64,000 nucleotides of DNA from Cinnamomum chago (Eukaryota; Streptophyta; Magnoliopsida; Laurales; Lauraceae). Numbering within the stretch: position 1 is the first letter of the stretch; each line of letters opens with the position of its first letter. Shown here piece after piece: positions 13,021-24,925 of this stretch. The notes beneath the pieces are model-generated. The model saw nothing but the letters and a program-made list of their open reading frames with translations, did no database searches and was not told where the DNA came from. Where the stretch lies: NCBI GenBank assembly GCA_038049695.1, contig CP142455.1, positions 65,730,501-65,794,500 of the forward strand. The letters run 5' to 3'. The translations under genes and the position numbers were made by a program.

Positions 13021-13660
13021 CAAACCACCAGTGCTGGCTGCCCCTACCACTGGAAAACCATTCATCTTGTACACAAGAACTCTCGACCACTCTTTAGGCG
13101 CTCTGCTCGCACAAGAGAATGACAAAGGAAAAAAAGCTGCGCTATATGCTGGTAGGTACGGAGCATCTCTACTCTCTAGTCGAGAAAGAATGCCTTGTAG
13201 TAATGTTTGCCGTACAAAAGCTGCGTCACTATCTGCTGTCCAACACAGTCTACCTGATTTCGAGGATCAACCACTTAAAGGTCCATGTCACAAAAGCAGG
13301 TTCTCTCAATGCCAGACTAGCAAAATGGTCCATCCTCCTATCACAATTCGATATCAGGTATGTACCACAAAAGGCAATCAAAGGCCAAGCTTTAGCAGAC
13401 TTTCTTGCAGAGCATCCATTGCCTAAAGATTCTCCACTAAGGGATGATCTCCCAGACGAACCTGTCGACAACGTGGAGATTTTCTCACCAAATGCCTCCT
13501 GGGACATGTACTTTGACGGTGCAATCAGGACAAATGAAAATAGAAAGCTAATCTCAGGAGTTGGCATCCTCTTTGTTAGCCCCGACAAGCACATGATTCC
13601 ACATGCTTTCTCGCTACTGGCCCATGTTCAAACAATGCAGCTGAATACCAAGCTCTCATC
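13021..13660 (+). pseudogene. RH: RNase H domain and start of the second RNase H
   Basis: The conventional RNase H follows RT directly (GKPFILYTRTLDHSLGALLAQ, then YSLVEKECLVVMFAVQKLRHYLL). A frameshift near 13150 separates its two halves. At about 13500 a second RNase H begins with WDMYFDGA and a typical beta-hairpin. It degrades RNA of the RNA-DNA hybrid. A tandem second RNase H of archaeal/plant type is a hallmark of the Tat lineage. Confidence 0.85.
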
Positions 13661-14098
13661 GTGGGATTGGGACTAGCCCTCGAATCCAGCATCACCATGC
13701 TGGAAGTCTTTGGAGACTCTCAACTGATCGTCAACCAGATGAATCAGAAATTTGAAGTAAGGAAGCCTGATCTGTTGCCTTACTACAACAAGGCACAATC
13801 ACTTCACCAAAGGTTTGACATCTGTCACATCACCCACATCCTCATAGGTGAAAACATTCGTGCAGATGCTCTAGTCGGACTTACCGCATCCATGGCGATC
13901 CAGAAAGGGGAGAACCTGCAAATTACAGGGTGTCAAAGAAGGACTCTCCCTCCTTTCAACACACATCAAGCAGCTGTTGAATGCCACAAATTGGCTGGAA
14001 GTTGGATCTCCATCCTCAAACCTCCGATCGGTGACTGGAGAGATCCGTTCATTGATCACATCATGTTCAGAATCCTCCCTGAAGATTCAAAAGAATAG
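13661..14098 (+). pseudogene. aRH: Second (archaeal-type) RNase H, C-terminal part
   Basis: After a frameshift near 13640 the domain continues with a glycine-rich helix entry (GLGLALE), VFGDSQLIVNQM (the conserved D-S-Q-L) and a final NIRADALVGL segment holding the last Asp. The frame ends at a TAG at 14096-14098 and resumes in phase with the integrase. Confidence 0.82.
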
Positions 14099-15277
14099 GT
14101 AAGCATTCAAAGACGAGCCCCAAACTTCCATTTGGATATACCTTCAAATATGCTTTACAGAAAATCCTTCGACGGAGTACTTCTACGCTGCTTGTCACAA
14201 CAAGAGGCTGAGGAAACACTCAAAGAAGTTCATGCTGGTCTTTGTGGAGCCCATCAGGTTGGGCCCAAGCTTTACGATTAGATAAAAAGATTGGGATATT
14301 ATTGGCCTACCATGGTAGCTGACGCCATGCAATTTGCTAAACGCTACCGCCAATGCCAAGTTCACATGCCTCCAGAATGGCTACATCCTATAGCAATCTC
14401 ATGGCCTTTCGATGCCTCGGGTATGGACATCATAAGTCATATCTCTCCCCCATCAAGCAAAGGCCATCGCTTCATCTTCACCACTACAGATTATTTCTCC
14501 AAGTGGTCAGAAGCGTTTGTGCTCAGTGAAATGAAGACCTCATCAGTCCTTCAATTCTTACGCATCAACGTTATTTGTCGCTTCGGTATACCTAAAAGAT
14601 TCGTTCATGATAGCGGACCACAATTCCGGGATCACCGATTCTACAAGTTTTGCGATAAGTACAAAATCCAAAGTTGTCCTTCGACTTCGTACAATCCTGC
14701 AGCAAACGGACTAGCAGAAGCCTTCAACAAGACACTCTGCAAAATCCTTAAGAAAATGGTCTCTAGTCACAAAAGAGACTGGGGAGACAAACTACTTGAA
14801 GCTTTGTGGGTTTATCGAACCACCGTTCGAGGGCGAACCCATAGCACACCATTCTCTTTAGTCTATGGATGCGAAGCTATTGTCCCTTTGGAAGTACAAA
14901 TTCCTTCCTTAAGAGTATCTTTACAAAATGACATGACGCAAGAAAGCAATGTCAAACTGAGACTCCAAGAACTGGACAATCTCGACGAAAGACGGCTCGA
15001 AGCCTTACAAAGCATTGAGTTGTACCAAGCACCCATGGCAGGGTCTTTCGACAAGAGGATCCGGCAACGCACCTACAAAAAGGGCAACTTGGTTCTCGTA
15101 GTAAAAAGGCCAATGGTTTTCGCCCACAAATCCAAAGGCAAACTCGAACTAAAATGGGAGGGACCCTTCGTCATTGACAAAGTCTTCTCCAACGGTGCAT
15201 ACGCACTTCTAAACATGGAAGGTGACAGATGTATGCTGCCCATCAATGGCAAGTTCTTGAAGCGATACTACCCTTGA
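14099..15277 (+). pseudogene. INT: Integrase of the Tat element, no chromodomain
   Basis: The N-terminal zinc domain shows both histidines (EVHAGLCGAH), but the first cysteine of the C-x2-C pair appears replaced by tyrosine (KRYRQCQ). An in-frame TAG at 14279-14281 sits where a glutamine codon is usual. The catalytic core has Asp in GMDIIS, Asp in VHDSGPQF and Glu in NGLAEAFNKT, the D,D-35-E triad. The C-terminal part includes KWEGPFVIDKV, a GPY/F-like element, and ends KRYYP at a TGA. No chromodomain follows, in agreement with Tat rather than chromoviruses. Confidence 0.9.
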
Positions 15278-15640: not shown

Positions 15641-16052
15641 GCGGGGAAGCGACGCTCAGTCGATACTCGCAAAACCAAAAAATCGGAAGGATGCGAATCC
15701 CATTCGATACTTCCAAAATTTTCAAAATTGCAAAGAAGCGACACTTTGTCGATACTTGCAAGATTTCAAAAATCGTGGAGACGCAACATTCCAGTTGATA
15801 TCCACAAACCCAAAATTCAAACAAAAAACCGAGGTCCAAAAAAAAAATCTGTGGGGAAGCGACATTCCATCGATACCCACAAAACCAAATTTTTGAAAAA
15901 AGCAAGGAAGCGACGCTTAGTCGATACTTGCTCCCAAATCCGCGAGGAGGCGACATTTCATCGATACTCGCAACCAAATGAGCAAGGAGGCGACGTTTCA
16001 TCGATACTTGCAAGGCCATTCAGCAGGGAGGCGACTTTTAGTCGATACTTGC
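15641..16052 (+). repeat. Nine-unit array of covarying 30-nt stem-loop repeats
   Basis: Units start at 15641, 15685, 15730, 15775, 15851, 15902, 15942, 15982 and 16023; eight are exactly 30 nt and one 31. Each reads as a 5-bp outer stem, a 4x3 internal loop, a 4-bp inner stem (CGAC/GTCG type) and a 5-nt loop. Outer stems differ between units but stay paired: GCAAG/CTTGC, GCGAG/CTCGC, GTGGG/CCCAC, GTGGA/TCCAC, GGAAG/CTTCC. Inner stems change in step as well (CAAC/GTTG, CGAA/TTCG). Tandem repeats in this region are known in Tat elements. Confidence 0.85.
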
Positions 16053-16070
16053 ATTTTTTAAAACAAAAAA

Positions 16071-16690
16071 TCGGCTGTAAATGCCAAAAACCCGACTCTC
16101 ACGCCAAAAATTGGCTATAAATGCAAAAAACCCGGCTGTCACGCCAAAAAATCGGCTATAAATGCCACAAAACCTGGCTTTCACGCCAACAAAACAAAAC
16201 TTGGTTTTAAAAAAATCGGCAATAAACAACACAAAATTGGCTATAAAGGCCACGAATTCGGCTATAAATGCCACAAAAAAAATCTGCTATAAACGCCACA
16301 AAATTTCGGCTTACATGCCAAAAACAAATTTCGGCTTTTAGGCCAACAAAAAAATCCTGGCTATCAATGCCACAAACAAAAATCAACTCTCATGCCATTT
16401 CAAAAATCGGCTCCCATGCCATAAACAAAAATTTTGGCTCCCATGCCACAAACAAAACATGGCTCTCATGCCATTTCAAAAATTGGCCTTTATGCCATCT
16501 CAAAATTTGGGCTCCTATGCCACAAACAAAATCAGTTTTTATACCATCCCAAATTTTGGCTTTTACGCCTCAAAATCTCGGCTTCCATGCCACCTCAAAA
16601 TTCCGGCTTCTATGCCACCTCAAAATTCTGGCTTCCATGCCATTGCAAAATTTGGCTTTCATGCCATCTCAAAATTCGGCTTTCACGCCA
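16071..16690 (+). repeat. About 27 short units of TGGC-N6-GCCA type
   Basis: Directly after the stem-loop array comes a run of units about 24 bp long, each with GGC, five or six bases, then GCC, followed by an A/C-rich linker (for example GGCTTTCACGCC at 16678-16689 and GGCTTCCATGCC nearby). Each unit is a minimal dyad with a 3-4 bp stem. ORFs reading through this region are products of the repeat, not genes. Confidence 0.8.
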
Positions 16691-17052: not shown

Positions 17053-17813
17053 TCATTGCTCGTACTCTTGAGTCTTCCTCCGGAGATTGCTCTCAGCCTC
17101 CTTGACTTGGCGAATCAGAGTCCCTTCTCTGGCACGAGCTTCCACAATGGCAACTTGTTCCTCCAATAGCTCAAGACGTTGCCTGGTCTCAACGACCTCT
17201 CTATCAATACGGCTCAGATCCTCTGTCAGCCCAATGATAGCCAACTCGGTAACGTTCCTCTCCCGAACGAATTGCTTCCGAGTCCGCGAGATTTCGTCCA
17301 GCTCAGACTTGACATTGCCAGAAGGCTTCAAAAACATCTCATTGAAGAAGTCACCACTAGCGAAGCTCTTGGTTTCATTCCACTTGCTCCCTAAAGCTAT
17401 GACTTCATCAACGAAAGCCTTCGCATCTGCAATGTCCAAGCCGACTTCTTTGCTATCAGTAAGGATGTCCTGTACATGCTTGACCATGCCAAAGCCAGCT
17501 TCCAAATGGCCAGAAGAAAGTGTTTCGATCCACGAGCTCAAAACGCTCTTCAGCACTTTCTTCGCATACTCAAGAGACGGCCCGGACAAAGGCTCGCCCA
17601 TCTCCATTGGTCGATTGCCCGTGTCATATCCTGCTGGAGGAGTAATCATTAAGCTCTTTCTAACCGGAGACACTGGCGAAGGAATCTGCTCGAACGATTT
17701 CATCTCTGTCACATTAAAACTAGAAGAAGAAGTCCCTACTTCTGGTTCAACTGCAGGCATCCCCTGCTCTGCCACTGAGATGGACAGAGGAACTTCTTCT
17801 GTCGCCTCACAAT

Positions 17814-17894
17814 CTGCCAGCAAAAAAAAAAAAAGAGGTATGAATATGATCCTGTTGAAAAAATCAATATCATCAGGGTTGTTACTACAAATAC
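17814..17894 (-). other. Intron 3 of the antisense gene (81 bp, phase 1)
   Basis: Donor GTATTTGTAG, acceptor GCTGGCAG. Its length is a multiple of three and it has no stop, so retention would also give an open frame; the poly-F/L peptide it would encode makes splicing more likely. Confidence 0.65.
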
Positions 17895-18005
17895 CTTCAT
17901 CGACGATTGACGGAATACTTTCTGCCTCCATAAGTTCATCCGAAGCATCGTCAAAGGACGCATCCATGGATGGCTCAAAATCGTCGGAATCCTGTGGCAA
18001 GTCAG

Positions 18006-18081
18006 CTGATAAAAAAACAAGCAACATGTTAGCAGATGACAGCACAGACACAAAAAGAAAGAAAATACAAAGAAGTCATAC
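18006..18081 (-). other. Intron 2 of the antisense gene (76 bp, phase 1)
   Basis: Donor GTATGACTTC, acceptor TTTTATCAG. It joins exon 2 (117 bp) to exon 3 (18005-17895, 111 bp) in phase. The donor is nearly identical to that of intron 1, which hints at exon-intron duplication. Confidence 0.75.
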
Positions 18082-18278: not shown

Positions 18279-20929
18279 CTTCATCAACGGTTTCTTCCTC
18301 TCGGCTCCTCTTTTCCGAAGGCTCATCAGCGTCCCCTGACATCTCTTCAGCGGTGGTGAGAAGGACTTCTAAATCAGGAGAGTCATCGTGTCGTCTCTTA
18401 TTACGGCGCTGCCCTCTTTTCCTCTTGCTTCTATGGGTGGATTTACTTGAAGTACCCGCCCCACTGTCAAAGTCAGGAGCTTCTCTTGGTTCCTCACCCG
18501 GTAGTCTGCTTTTCCCAGTGGATTCCATGGAAGTCTTCTTCAGTTCCGCTTACATCCAAGCGTCAATCTTGGCTTCCTCCTATTCGAGCTGTTCTAAGAC
18601 CTCACTAGGTATCTCTTGTACAGCTCCTGGTCTGATGATGTCCTGCTCAGTGAGAAAGCCGATCTTGTGCTTCTCTCCAGAAAGGAAAGCCAAGACTTCC
18701 TCTCGACGGACTCCATCTGATCTGCCAAGACCCTTCCCAGGAGATTGCTTGACATCAAGCTCCTTCTTGGAAAGCCCTCGGTACACAGAAAAGCTTTCCA
18801 CGAACCATTTCGTGAAGCCAGCAGTCCGGAAGGTGGGCAACTCAGGATGGCGGTAGTGTCCTCCGCACTGTAAAAGGCTCATGTATTCCTTCCATCCTGT
18901 AAACCTCCAAAGAGCTTCACCATGCTCGAAGGCGCACCAACAACGCCTTGAGAGAAGCCCAACTACAGCGCGAAACGGGAGGGAACATACGGCTGGATAT
19001 CAACAAAAAGATGTCTCTGGTACACCATCGTACCAACACGTATGTTAAAAGGCCATCCCTTTTCTGCATTGGCCAAAGAGTAATGTCTTCCCGACCCCGC
19101 CCTGGTGGAATCACGGGACACTCCAAAATCAAAAGCCTTCTTCCGCAAACCTGGAGAAAGCTTTACTAAAGATTGCCCGATCTCGACGTCCCTGAACCGT
19201 CGGATCCTCAAACGGGCAGACAAAAGAGATTCGGAAACGGCTGTCCCTCTAGCCAACCGAATCATGAAAGGGTCATCATCTTGTGCAACTCCTAAGTGAT
19301 GGAAGCCGAGACAGTGGTAAACATACCACGAATAGAAAATATGGGCTGAAAATACCCAGTTCATAGGGAGCCCAAGCCGAACCAAGAAAGCAGCAGCCTG
19401 TAGTTCGGTACACAAGTAGGAGTAAAGAGCTGGCACCAAAGCCAACCGCTCTCCGAATGCCATCTGACATGCCGGAAAAATACAATGCAGCCTGATGTGT
19501 GTTCCATCCCCTCCAGCAAAAGCAGCCTCACCCAACCAATAAGTGAGGTAAATAGCGAGATCTCTTCGCAGTGCAAAGGCAGGACAAATGGCGTATGTAC
19601 TCTCGAAGAACTTCTTCAAGTCATCTCGCATAACGGAGATCTTCTTCGACCCTGGGTTCTTGGCCCTAGCATCTTAGGCCACACCTCCAGAAGACTCTTC
19701 ATCGTCAAAGAAGTTGGAGCCACAACTCTTCCAACTGCTACACCGGACTTTCGAGCCCTCCTTCACCTTCAAAAAATCATAAAAGGCGATGAACTGAAGG
19801 TACAGGAGCCTGAACTCCTCAGATTGCTCCTCAAGAACGCTGTCGATGGGCATAAACTCCTCATAGAGTTTGCCAAGGATATGTAGCCCGGTGATGACGC
19901 TTAATTCCTTCAAGGTAAAACCAATCTCACCATTCGTCACAACGAAGGTGTTGCTCTGTGGAAGGAATGACTCCAGCATGGCCATGAAGGCCTCATCGGA
20001 GAAAACCACGGTCTTCCGAAAAGCGCTAACCGCATTAAAGATCCCGACCTCCTTCAAAATGGCTCCACCAACCTGTAGGGTGTGATCAGTCCATGATTCC
20101 CAACTCGAATCAACACTGAAACGGCCACGAAGTCGAAAAGGCTTCACCCAACCGCTGCCGTCACCCAGAAAAATGCCAAGGCCAACCAGTCTCAAACTAA
20201 CCAACGGATGGTCAGAACCTTGGTAGCCACTGGAGGGTATCAACATGTCCATACGGACAGGAAACTTCTCCGCATATCCGGGAGGGCCGCCAACAAAAAC
20301 CCCGATCTTTATCACATTGGTCCTCTTTACCCAGCTTGGAGGATCCTCCCTCTTGGGACACGTGGGAGAAAGACTCATGATCGATACAGTCCGATCAAAA
20401 GTCGACAGGGTAGAAATAGTTCTCTCCTCACCATTAACTTTGTAAGAGAACTGAAAGCATCTTCTTTGGTACGTCAAGTCGTCAGGGACAGCATCGCCAA
20501 AGAAAAAGGTAGGCTTGGGCACAATGCTCTGATCATCCATGACCCAAGGACGATTGCTTACCACAATTCCATAGAACTCCTCATCCTTGAGAGCGATCAA
20601 TCGATGTCTCATCTCATCGCGGTTGAGGGAGTCACACTCTTCTAGGTTTCTCTCCACAAACTGGACCTTCTCCCAGGCTTGCTGTACGACCACATTAGGA
20701 GACGTGGTAGACAGACAAGGTGCATCAGTAGCAGGCTCTTTACCCTTGTTCATTCTGGAGGAACTACCTGTAAAAGGATGGAAAAGAAAAAATCAATCAT
20801 TAAAGTGACAAAATTTTGCTAAGAAAAATTCTAGCGAAATTTTTGCATGATTCCGAGACAATTCCAAAGAAAAGGAAAACATCCCGACAAAGGTAGGAAG
20901 CTTGAAGATGAGCTCAAAGAAACATCCTC

Positions 20930-22009: not shown

Positions 22010-22305
22010 TACCCTAGCTTGCCAAATAAAGCTTGTTAGGTCACAAGGCCAAAACCAAAAACAAAAATCCTGACCCCCTAGCTTGCTACATACAGCTTGT
22101 TAGGTCACAAGGTCAAAACCAAATCTGACCCCGCAACTTGCCACATACAGCTTGTTGGATCACAAGGTCAAAATAAAAAAAAAATCAAATCCCGACCCCC
22201 TAACCTGCCACATACAGCTTGTTAGGTCACAAGGTCAAAAACCAAAAATCCTTCTTGATCACCTGATGTGCCACATAAAGCCATTAGGTTCACAAGATCA
22301 AAAGG
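22010..22305 (+). repeat. Five tandem ~60-65 bp units
   Basis: Units contain gccacatacagcttgttagg followed by tcacaaggtcaaaa, repeated at roughly 22030, 22085, 22140, 22205 and 22270. The block lies about 200 bp before the polypurine tract. Confidence 0.75.
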
Positions 22306-22520: not shown

Positions 22521-22674
22521 TGTTGACACCAAAAATGTTACTTTGCCTCTTCAACATCAAAAACCCGCATGAAGCCGCATCCTACTACAAACAGGCAATA
22601 CCGCTTAAAGCATCAGATCTCATCAGAATCACTTGAAAACTAATAGATCCTTCAAGACAGCCAAAAGAGGAGTG

Positions 22675-23165
22675 CACGTCAAATTTCAGTCATTCCGACA
22701 ATGTTTGACCCGACTTTGACGCTTCGAAAGAAAATCAAGCCCCTCGGCGGTGAAAACCACCCGGACCATTACTCATCAAACGAAGCACATGGGCGGTTTC
22801 AACATACTTCAAAAGGGTTGCACGTCAAATTTCAGGTTATTCCGACAACGTTTGACCCGACTTTGATACTCCGAAAGAAAATCAAGGCTATTGGCGGCGG
22901 GGAACCCCGGAACCATGACATCCAAATCGGAGCAAATTGATCATCTCAAAATGACTCCAATAGGCTCTCTAACAAATTTCAGGTCAATCGGACATCGGTT
23001 GACTGCACATCAAAGCGCGACATCTTCCTCGCGGCAAAATCAAGCCTAGCAGCAACAGGACCCCAAACGGCTTGAAAACTCAAGCAAAAGCCCATGGTTG
23101 GTCCTATCTACTTCTTAGGAGGCTTCACGTCAAATTTCAGGTCATTCCGACATCGTTTGACCTAG
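22675..23165 (+). repeat. Four diverged U3 repeats at ~147-158 bp spacing
   Basis: The core aaatttcaggtcattccgac followed by a gtttgac element is found at about 22681, 22827, 22974 and 23132. The third copy is most diverged. All lie upstream of the TATA box. Confidence 0.75.
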
Positions 23166-24091
23166 TTTCGACTCTTGACAAAAAATGGCAACTTTGTGCA
23201 GCAAAGTCTTCAGCTTTTCTAAAAAAATAGGAAACTTTGTGCTCCGATTTGCACGGTATCTCATCAGGTTTTCTTCAGGAGAATCAAGCCAAAAAAAGAG
23301 GAGAAGTGTCAAGAAATTTCCAGGAGAAAACGGCGGCGAAAAGACCAAAGAACGGCCGAGAAACGGCGACCAAAAGCGGACCAATCCCCATGGTCGCCGG
23401 CGACCATGGAAATCCGGGTCACCGGATTAGTCGCCAGGTGACCCGTTTTCCATCCTCTTTCGCGTTTTGGAAGTTCTAGCCCTTGTGATTTCCTAAAAAT
23501 CTGATTTTTTATGCTCGAAAATGACTGATCTTCGTCAACATCACGGATCTGCCGTTAAGAGCATGAAATCGTCATCAATCACTCCAAGATCGCCAACCGG
23601 CCAACCAAGAAAGTGCACTTTCTGTCCGATTGATCGAGAAATCGACAAGACAGATGTCACCGGCTCGCTAGCATCAACCAATGTCTGAAGTTGCGTGGTC
23701 ATCCAACATCGATCAACATGAAGATCCATCGTCGATCATCGCAAGAAGAATTTCAAAAGATGCGGTACGGCCCGTGACTCTTCAACTCTTCAGTGACCAC
23801 TTAATGATGTTAATTGACCCAACTAAATACGGTCATTAACTCATTATTTTGGACGGCCCAATCAGAAGCAAGGAAATGAGAGTTACAAGTCCAAATCATC
23901 ATGACATTAAAGTTATGAAACTCCTCTCATCATGGAGATTAAAGGCGATTAAATGCCCATTACTCCATCGGCCAATCAAAAGCCAAGAAAAAGGAGTTAC
24001 AAAACAAAGGATTTAAAACTTGTAACTCCTCCCATTATGTGGTTTTAATGCATTAAAGCCCATAAAGTCACCTAAAGGCTACCAAAATGCC

Positions 24092-24099
24092 TATAAAAG
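24092..24099 (+). promoter_or_regulatory. TATA box of the Tat 3' LTR
   Basis: TATAAAAG in gcctataaaaggagg. It lies about two thirds into the LTR, the expected U3/R boundary. Confidence 0.7.
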
Positions 24100-24590
24100 G
24101 AGGTGACCCCAAGAAGCCAAGACACATAGAGAATCTCAGAATTCCGAACTCAAGATCCAGAAGCCCTGCTAATCTAAAGAAACCCTGCTACAAGAAGAAA
24201 CTTTGCTGCAACAAACACTCAAAAGGAGATCAAAGTCCTTTGCCCCCCCCCCTCCTTTAAGAAAAAACCTCCTCTTCTCCTACTCAACATGGCCAAGACG
24301 TGGCTCTTCAGCCCGTCTCTTCGTTTTTCATTGGATATAGGACCTTCCCTTGGTCTTTATCCTCTAAAAAACTGAAGTCCAAGCCAAGCCAAAGAATCAA
24401 AGCATTAAGCATTCTCATCTGAAGGACGATGGCGAAGTCCATACATGACTTGCGACCGTCGATTTGAACTAGTCCCCACAATCTCCTGAGAAATCAGATT
24501 CATTTTCTTACTTTTCTGTTGTATTTTGTATTTTCTTTAAGAGACAAAAAAATCACAATTCTTGCCTTTCATTTTGATAAGATGTGTAAA

Positions 24591-24670
24591 TCGCCTTTCA
24601 CGGCGCAAAATCGCCTTTTACGGCAAACAAAATCGTCTTTCACGGCAAACAAAATCGCCTCCAACGGAAT
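24591..24670 (+). repeat. Four GCC-N6-GGC mini-dyads in the LTR
   Basis: Units tcgcctttcacggc recur at about 24591, 24611, 24633 and 24655 with A-rich linkers. The loop tttcac equals the loop of a unit at 16678-16689, but the stem bases are exchanged (GCC/GGC instead of GGC/GCC). Confidence 0.7.
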
Positions 24671-24737
24671 TTTAAAAAAAAACTCTCTTTTCTTAAATAT
24701 GTGTGCAACGGAAAGTTAGAAAAAAGGTTGATTTCCT

Positions 24738-24790
24738 TTCTACTTGCGAAGGTGGATCTCCAGATCACCGTTTCTAAATTTCAAGTAGAA
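24738..24790 (+). other. Long hairpin near the end of the Tat LTR
   Basis: TTCTACTTG (24738-24746) pairs perfectly with CAAGTAGAA (24782-24790). Inside, GGTgGATCT and AGATCACC form a second stem of 8 bp with one bulged G and a 2-nt loop. The position is downstream of the TATA box, so it would be in the transcript. Confidence 0.7.
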
Positions 24791-24925
24791 TAGAAAATCT
24801 GGCATACCCGTGCAAAATATAGATGCCCTTTTTTCTCCCCTTTTCCTCCCTCCATTCGATTTCCTCTCGGCGACCCCGGGGACGGATGGGAGAGGAGAGG
24901 AAAGAAAAAATCGGGTCCATCAACA

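Follow-up and report, generated by a model that had tools for sequence, protein, structure and literature searches.

Tandem repeats in the 3' region of Tat/Ogre/Retand retrotransposons were reportedly described in Macas 2009. Such repeats are common in Tat elements and seed satellite DNA (PMC7004042), and both their origin and their function have been called unknown (PMC11963269). Here we analyze one such array, array A, in a window of 64,000 nucleotides (the whole stretch of DNA that was analyzed). Array A resembles the repeats characterized in the corresponding passages of these papers in the features of the clade, in its place between pol and the 3' LTR, in its short units and variable copy number, and in having antisense frames nearby; the published repeats, however, are described as hypervariable and of unknown function (PMC7004042, PMC11963269), whereas array A has a covarying stem, a conserved internal loop, and a place that is kept in 57 of 60 stretches. 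The main texts of PMC7004042 and PMC11963269 mention no hairpin, inverted repeat, or secondary structure, with "palindrom-" occurring in a cited title only, and we found no report of hairpins or covariation in Tat-type tandem arrays in the open-licence literature. While tandem arrays at this place in Tat elements are well known, the covarying hairpins appear to be new.

Sirevirus palindromic motifs are likewise dyads, situated in the linker region and the LTRs, and their letters vary between elements while the symmetry is kept (PMC2829016). They belong to Ty1/copia elements, however, and are short palindromes that are likened to DNA-binding sites and are 66.5-100% identical within an element; the passages of PMC2829016 on these motifs describe neither an asymmetric internal loop nor covariation within one element. 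We rejected the Sirevirus motif (CGG-CCG core, dyad symmetry, Ty1/copia) as an identity for array A because the host of the array has Ty3 domain order and the internal loop breaks the symmetry. The M-PMV CTE has a 3' position. It is a structured element on retroelement genomic RNA, as we propose for array A, and its copies are additive in targeting RNA to the microtubule-organising centre, but it binds NXF1/NXT1 in animal cells (PMC4829213) and bears no sequence relation to array A. We regard this likeness as an analogy in how the two might work and not as membership. Tandem stem-loops that act jointly are also reported for roX, in a title cited in PMC4710571; roX, in contrast, is a fly long non-coding RNA, and no sequence relation to it is claimed.

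The host element and the layout of array A

The plus strand of the element carries gag, RT, RNase H, a second RNase H-like domain, and integrase, and these are followed 3' of the integrase by arrays A and B, antisense frames, and a probable 3' LTR (Table 1). A second RNase H (aRH) between RH and INT is a mark of the angiosperm Tat lineages Ogre and Retand (PMC6317226). This domain is present in the window, as are tandem repeats between pol and the 3' LTR, a Tat-clade feature also found in 57 of 60 related stretches, and the host element is a Tat-clade Ty3 retrotransposon. The closest named relatives of its integrase come from Persea americana, at 85% identity or less, and two further relatives stand at 88-89%. 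An extra frame has been described with a plant mobile domain in 57% of Ogre and with Transposase_28 in 23% of Retand elements (PMC6317226); in the antisense frames of the window, the PF10536 matches (E 4.4e-6 and 7.2e-5) are both under the gathering score, and a search for PF04195 gave no match. A 5' LTR was looked for within the 64,000-nt window and not found. Just 5' of the 3' LTR lies a further tandem array, at 22012-22303, with units of 55-67 nt and CTTG..CAAG arms, in which no obvious covariation is seen by eye.

Table 1. Positions of the element's features and of the array A units in the window
Feature	Position	Strand	Remarks
RH	13098-13676		upstream of second RNase H-like domain and INT
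Second RNase H-like domain (PF13456)	13580..14098	+	E 1.6e-16 for the match at 13580-14095; between RH and integrase
Integrase end of pol (PF00665)	14282..15277	+	array A begins ~360 nt past the stop
Array A, unit 1	15641..15670	+	outer pair 4 G.T
Array A, unit 2	15685..15714	+	outer pair 2 G-C, inner pair 4 A-T
Array A, unit 3	15730..15759	+	A.C at outer pair 5; no counterpart in the layout of eight units shared by 29 related loci
Array A, unit 4 (31 nt)	15775..15805	+	outer pair 2 T-A, inner pair 2 A-T
Array A, unit 5	15851..15880	+	C.A closing the loop, family-wide
Array A, unit 6	15902..15931	+	outer pair 4 A-T; G.T in 26/29 related loci
Array A, unit 7	15942..15971	+	C.A closing the loop; outer pair 4 A-T, but G.T in 18/29 related loci
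Array A, unit 8	15982..16011	+	C.A closing the loop
Array A, unit 9	16023..16052	+	outer pair 4 G.T in 40/40 window-family copies
Array B	16064..16690	+	~20 short GGC-N(4-8)-GCC dyads with A-rich spacers; directly 3' of array A
Antisense open frame	17053..18075	-	coiled-coil-like by eye; no Pfam family matched
Two adjoining antisense open frames	18963..20792	-	weak plant mobile domain (PF10536) matches
3' LTR, read by eye	22521..24924	+	polypurine tract, then TGTTGACACC ... CCATCAACA
Array C in the LTR	24588..24660	+	~4 short GCC-N6-GGC type units, two exact

Array A consists of nine units at 15641-16052, eight of 30 nt and one (unit 4) of 31 nt, each laid out as a 5-bp stem, a 4x3 internal loop, a 4-bp stem, and a terminal loop. 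This is the arrangement that an earlier note on this DNA had described, and its account of the stems is also correct: outer pair 2 is C-G, G-C, or T-A, outer pairs 3, 4, and 5 switch as well, and the inner stems include CGAC/GTCG, CAAC/GTTG, and CGAA/TTCG. The internal loop is asymmetric in all nine units. Among the 81 pair cells of the array, 75 are Watson-Crick, two are G.T, four are A.C, and none is of any other kind. The A.C cells fall at outer pair 5 of unit 3, where the mismatch is peculiar to the window copy, and at inner pair 4, which closes the loop, of units 5, 7, and 8, where it is family-wide. Rfam gave no family at its cut-off for array A, its one match having an E of 0.9. We also rejected a protein-coding array: a 164-aa open frame spans array A, but because the frame of the units differs among relatives, this reading served only for finding relatives.

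Covariation in the window and at related loci

Two-sided changes occur at six of the nine pairs in the window units, and the covariation is more than chance would give. In 500 shuffles of the 3' letters, the observed values of four out of five measures were never reached, and the fifth, the number of further pair types, was reached in 161. When the partner was slid by 1-3 columns, 19-45% of the cells paired, as against 95% in register. As tandem units are related to one another, we added a tree-aware simulation, a neutral model in which 30-nt units evolve under HKY along the ML tree of the units (4000 runs per tree length). Simulated Watson-Crick cells had a mean of 53 and a maximum of 70 at the fitted tree length, and a maximum of 69 in 4000 runs at 1.5 times that length, compared with the 75 observed. 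The 12 two-sided cells of the array were reached in 0 runs at the fitted length and in 0.025% at 1.5 times, while at least six two-sided pairs, taken alone, arose in 0.2% and 2.8% of runs, respectively. Variable sites make up 67% of the stems, 100% of the terminal loop, and 14% of the internal loop in the window units; variable stems and terminal loop around a near-fixed internal loop are what would be expected of a recognized internal loop on a structural scaffold.

We also searched the genome of the window's own plant (1.06 Gb in 14 contigs). Searches with three integrase relatives (Persea, Iris, and one more) gave Tat copies, many with long open frames, and 60 stretches downstream of integrase were chosen, 20 per query list. 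Using a unit finder keyed to internal-loop letters, we recognized array A in 57 of the 60, with just 3 or 5 units in two; L080, L081, and L084 had no array A. The last of these is a stretch 3' of an integrase match. A model of the window units, run at E up to 1 on the first 20 stretches, gave 167 matches, all on the sense strand of the element. In an alignment that had been fitted to the structure and held 150 of 166 matches, the 69 distinct units changed two-sidedly at seven of nine pairs, in 78 cells versus 20 on shuffling. Later multi-locus counts leave out units with fewer than 6 of 9 pairable cells; together with the loop-anchored finder, this means that the multi-locus counts cannot show loop conservation and slightly favor pairing.

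Eight units were recognized in 31 of the 57 loci, and 29 of these share one layout without window unit 3 and serve as the orthologous set (L073 and L076, whose first units are out of register, were left out). Eight of the 57 have eleven units (L061, L074, L085, L087, L090, L092, L093, and L094), and where inspected these contain a repeated 6-7-8 triplet, L074 repeating a 121-bp triplet of units; in the inspected loci, unit number changes by duplication of units 6-7-8 or of unit 4. The commonest pair differs between the 29-locus layout and the window family at only 3 of 72 places, and sense pairing is kept at all three. One is a two-sided change, outer pair 3 of unit 1, which is A-T in 28/29 related loci and G-C in 35/40 window-family copies; the other two are the outer pairs 4 of units 6 and 7 (G.T in 26/29 and 18/29, respectively, versus A-T). 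In the last unit of eight loci, outer pair 3 is G.T, the intermediate between A-T and G-C. Covariation in homologous copies, which the earlier note had proposed to look for, persists at related loci.

A similar coupling can be read in translated public contigs, where V/H replaces A/R at outer pair 2 of unit 1. Either A/R or V/H is found there in 8 of 9 contig proteins, the window counted in; one of the eight starts with M, which was read as a GTG start. Among units in the same frame, 26 of 31 are coupled and 5 uncoupled, and in the other frame all 36 units have only K/L, E/S, R/L, or G/P (window units counted in for both); these protein-level numbers are not counts of events because many of the contigs are mutually orthologous. 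One plant-like translated array (P0127) stands in a record named Yersinia pestis and is presumably plant contamination. Integrase relatives were sought in viral_contigs and genome_contigs and none was confirmed. A candidate occurrence of the unit pattern in virus contigs was set aside, as its 7 stretches are about the number expected by chance on a rough estimate.

We compared pairing in copies of different apparent age, counting eight pairs and omitting the loop-closing one in both sets. In 11 loci whose integrase lies inside an open frame of 2,688-3,030 aa, 106 units hold 801 Watson-Crick, 43 G.T, 4 A.C, and 0 other cells, so that 844 of 848 pair in the sense. The old set consists of the best 40 of 1993 first-look candidates from an array search of the same genome, the window among them; the other 39 are old copies with 91-94% identity to the window across the array, and nine units could be aligned in each (unit 6 is cut in L026). 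Here, 163 of 2869 cells are without a sense pair. Since the old copies are worse paired than those with long frames, pairing goes with apparent youth. The earlier note had regarded loss of pairing in intact young copies as fatal to its reading; in the 11 loci with long frames, pairing is kept.

Many dead copies in the same genome also show what decay looks like without selection, an internal control that is rare for RNA structures. Where one side of the most frequent pair has changed in the 40 old copies, the outcome is G.T in 111 cells, A.C in 110, another mismatch in 62, and a Watson-Crick pair in 10; dead copies decay irrespective of strand. Two-sided changes in the same copies kept the pair in 5 of 7 cases. 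Shared variants, defined as alleles in four or more of the 40 copies, number 21 at 162 stem sites, 23 at 141 spacer sites, 3 at 46 terminal-loop sites, and 2 at 63 internal-loop sites. At stem sites they are no rarer than in spacers, which counts against the structural selection that we favor below.

The likelier folding strand

The earlier note had placed the hairpins on sense-strand RNA, citing the G.T at outer pair 4 of units 1 and 9. These cells are present, but as a strand argument they are one-sided, as the four A.C cells, which pair only as antisense RNA, were omitted; with 2 G.T for the sense and 4 A.C for the antisense strand, wobble pairs of the window alone cannot settle the question. 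Over 57 loci, the outer stems contain 216 G.T versus 29 A.C, of which outer pair 4, in mid-stem, supplies 180 G.T, and the remaining four outer pairs have 36 G.T versus 29 A.C. At inner pair 4, 182 of 464 cells are A.C and 3 are G.T; losing a loop-closing pair merely widens the loop. When all nine pairs are considered, the strands hardly differ in their number of broken cells (252 of 4176 for sense, 261 for antisense). Minority pair types in the 29 orthologous loci show no G.T excess, with 14 single and 3 double occurrences of G.T and 14 single, 2 double, and 2 more widely shared occurrences of A.C.

Folding predictions separate the strands. Among the 54 loci with at least 7 units, window included, the mean probability of the target pairs is 0.627 on the sense and 0.386 on the antisense strand, and sense is higher in 53. 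In 10 chosen loci that include the window (40 shuffles each), z ranges from -4.2 to -7.7 for sense and from -2.3 to +0.8 for antisense; with 100 shuffles, the window itself has z of -3.35 and -1.94, respectively. A fold on one strand that is stable against dinucleotide shuffles is a hallmark of structured RNA, and it is the sense strand that has one. The MFE is lower for antisense in 10/10 loci, the sense strand being ahead solely relative to shuffles, and among isolated units sense RNA is more stable in just 272 of 473. Together, these predictions make the sense strand the likelier folding strand, favored mainly by folding; the strand named in the earlier note is thus the favored one, though not on the G.T basis that it gave, as the outer-stem excess over 57 loci rests on outer pair 4.

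Possible roles of the array and of neighboring repeats

We consider it probable, though by no means secure, that array A serves a Tat-clade Ty3 element as a multivalent site for protein binding on its sense, genomic RNA and that selection on structure has kept it. Protein binding, the partner, and the step served (export, packaging, translation, or stability) are what we infer here from the hairpins. The sense transcript would bear mostly 8, and up to 11, hairpins between the integrase stop and the antisense genes, each presenting the same asymmetric internal loop (GANG opposite AUA) as a putative ligand face. Stem letters would be free provided that pairing holds, and the A-rich linkers would space the hairpins, such that several molecules of one protein, whether Gag of the element or a host factor for RNA binding or export, could bind side by side. 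Hairpins bound in this way may flag the full-length RNA for a single step in the life of the element; with retroviral transport elements as the analogy, our first guess would be export or capture of genomic RNA. The earlier note's claim that the hairpins were under selection stands as selection on structure while the element was active, but of the roles it listed, a block to read-through toward the antisense gene is the poorest fit, since genomic RNA must cross the array to reach the 3' LTR, which makes a sense terminator unlikely. These results suggest that the element puts to use, as RNA, a stretch that would normally pass for neutral repeats. With evidence that its evolution preserves an RNA fold, array A is no longer just a familiar oddity but an RNA element open to testing, and it is a candidate cis-signal for plant retroelements of a large class.

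Other explanations would place the dyads at the level of DNA or of mutation. Inverted repeats bound as duplex by a dimeric protein, whether antisense-encoded or a host factor, would make the array a transcriptional or chromatin element like the Sirevirus motifs, which its location between pol and the 3' LTR and the array C dyads in the LTR do resemble (PMC2829016). Antisense frames with plant mobile domain-like stretches exist, and array B holds a fixed GGC..GCC dyad. We nevertheless find this explanation unlikely: a dimer that reads sequence should conserve the letters of the arms, whereas the outer arms vary with pairing kept, and neither the strand asymmetry of folding in 53/54 loci nor the family-wide G.T at outer pair 4 is expected of duplex DNA. 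Slightly less likely still is maintenance by mutation without function, in which one arm is rewritten from the other by template switching, at reverse transcription or at replication, so that paired stems persist or arise. Such switching is able to create and maintain hairpins (PMC8794818), and the two double transversions that set unit 2 apart from most units (outer pair 2 and inner pair 4) are consistent with a single-step event. If the inner stem were copied into the outer one by fold-back, however, the 4x3 loop would become symmetric, yet it has remained asymmetric in 9/9 window units, and shared changes in the internal loop are rare (2 alleles at 63 sites versus 21 at 162 in stems, 40 copies). 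The G.T intermediate at outer pair 3 in the last unit of eight loci fits stepwise change, and pairing is poorer in old copies than in those with long open frames.

It seems to us improbable that the hairpins work for the antisense genes, either in the 3' region of their transcript or as a separator of converging transcription units. On that strand the target pairs have a mean probability of 0.386 versus 0.627 for sense, the z values of -2.3 to +0.8 in 10 loci lie in or near the shuffled controls, and outer pair 4 becomes a mid-stem mismatch in units 1, 6, and 9 and often in 7. Set against this are the situation of the array past the ends of the antisense frames, the C.A at inner pair 4, which pairs on the antisense strand only, and the lower antisense MFE in 10/10 loci. 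Least probable of all, and already strongly disfavored, are ordinary hypervariable repeats, in which a hairpin-forming founder was amplified by strand transfer and has been drifting since, with pairing merely inherited. Variable-number tandem repeats are usual at this place in Tat elements, as passages of PMC7004042 and PMC11963269 describe, and the number of array A units does vary among loci; drift from a paired founder, however, predicts about 53 Watson-Crick cells, with a maximum of 70, where 75 are seen, and an orthologous unit shows a two-sided change.

Structural selection on a row of hairpins might extend beyond array A. Array B has 19.1 dyads per locus versus 0.09-0.16 in three control arrangements (58 loci, window included) and 14.5 versus 0.3-1.05 in the 40 window-family copies; the 58-locus counts test dyad excess and not covariation, because only exact GGC/GCC arms were counted. 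The loop letters of array C units match those of some array B units, with the middle pair reversed. L080, from a diverged Tat family, has its own repeats after the integrase (180-600), with 5-bp inverted arms and a TAYNANGCC-like loop. A permutation test of this array is weak (p 0.03-0.09, one doubtful unit kept), and its z is -3.27 for antisense versus -2.23 for sense, with an MFE structure that is not built from the inverted-arm hairpins. On the basis of the L080-type repeats and of arrays B and C, we tentatively raise the possibility, which we hold to be short of probable, that, in this case at least, the repeats called hypervariable in Tat elements form a class of multivalent cis-acting RNA elements: always at one place after the integrase, each family would keep a row of protein-binding hairpins while the letters, unit number, and hairpin type are replaced, L080 representing a second type. 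The best 40 of 124 candidates for the L080 family are strongly clustered, 37 on C4 (90.4-97.7 Mb) and 3 on C2 (0.39-0.85 Mb), yet this clustering is not exclusive, as L081, whose array is almost identical, is located at 6.45 Mb on C10.
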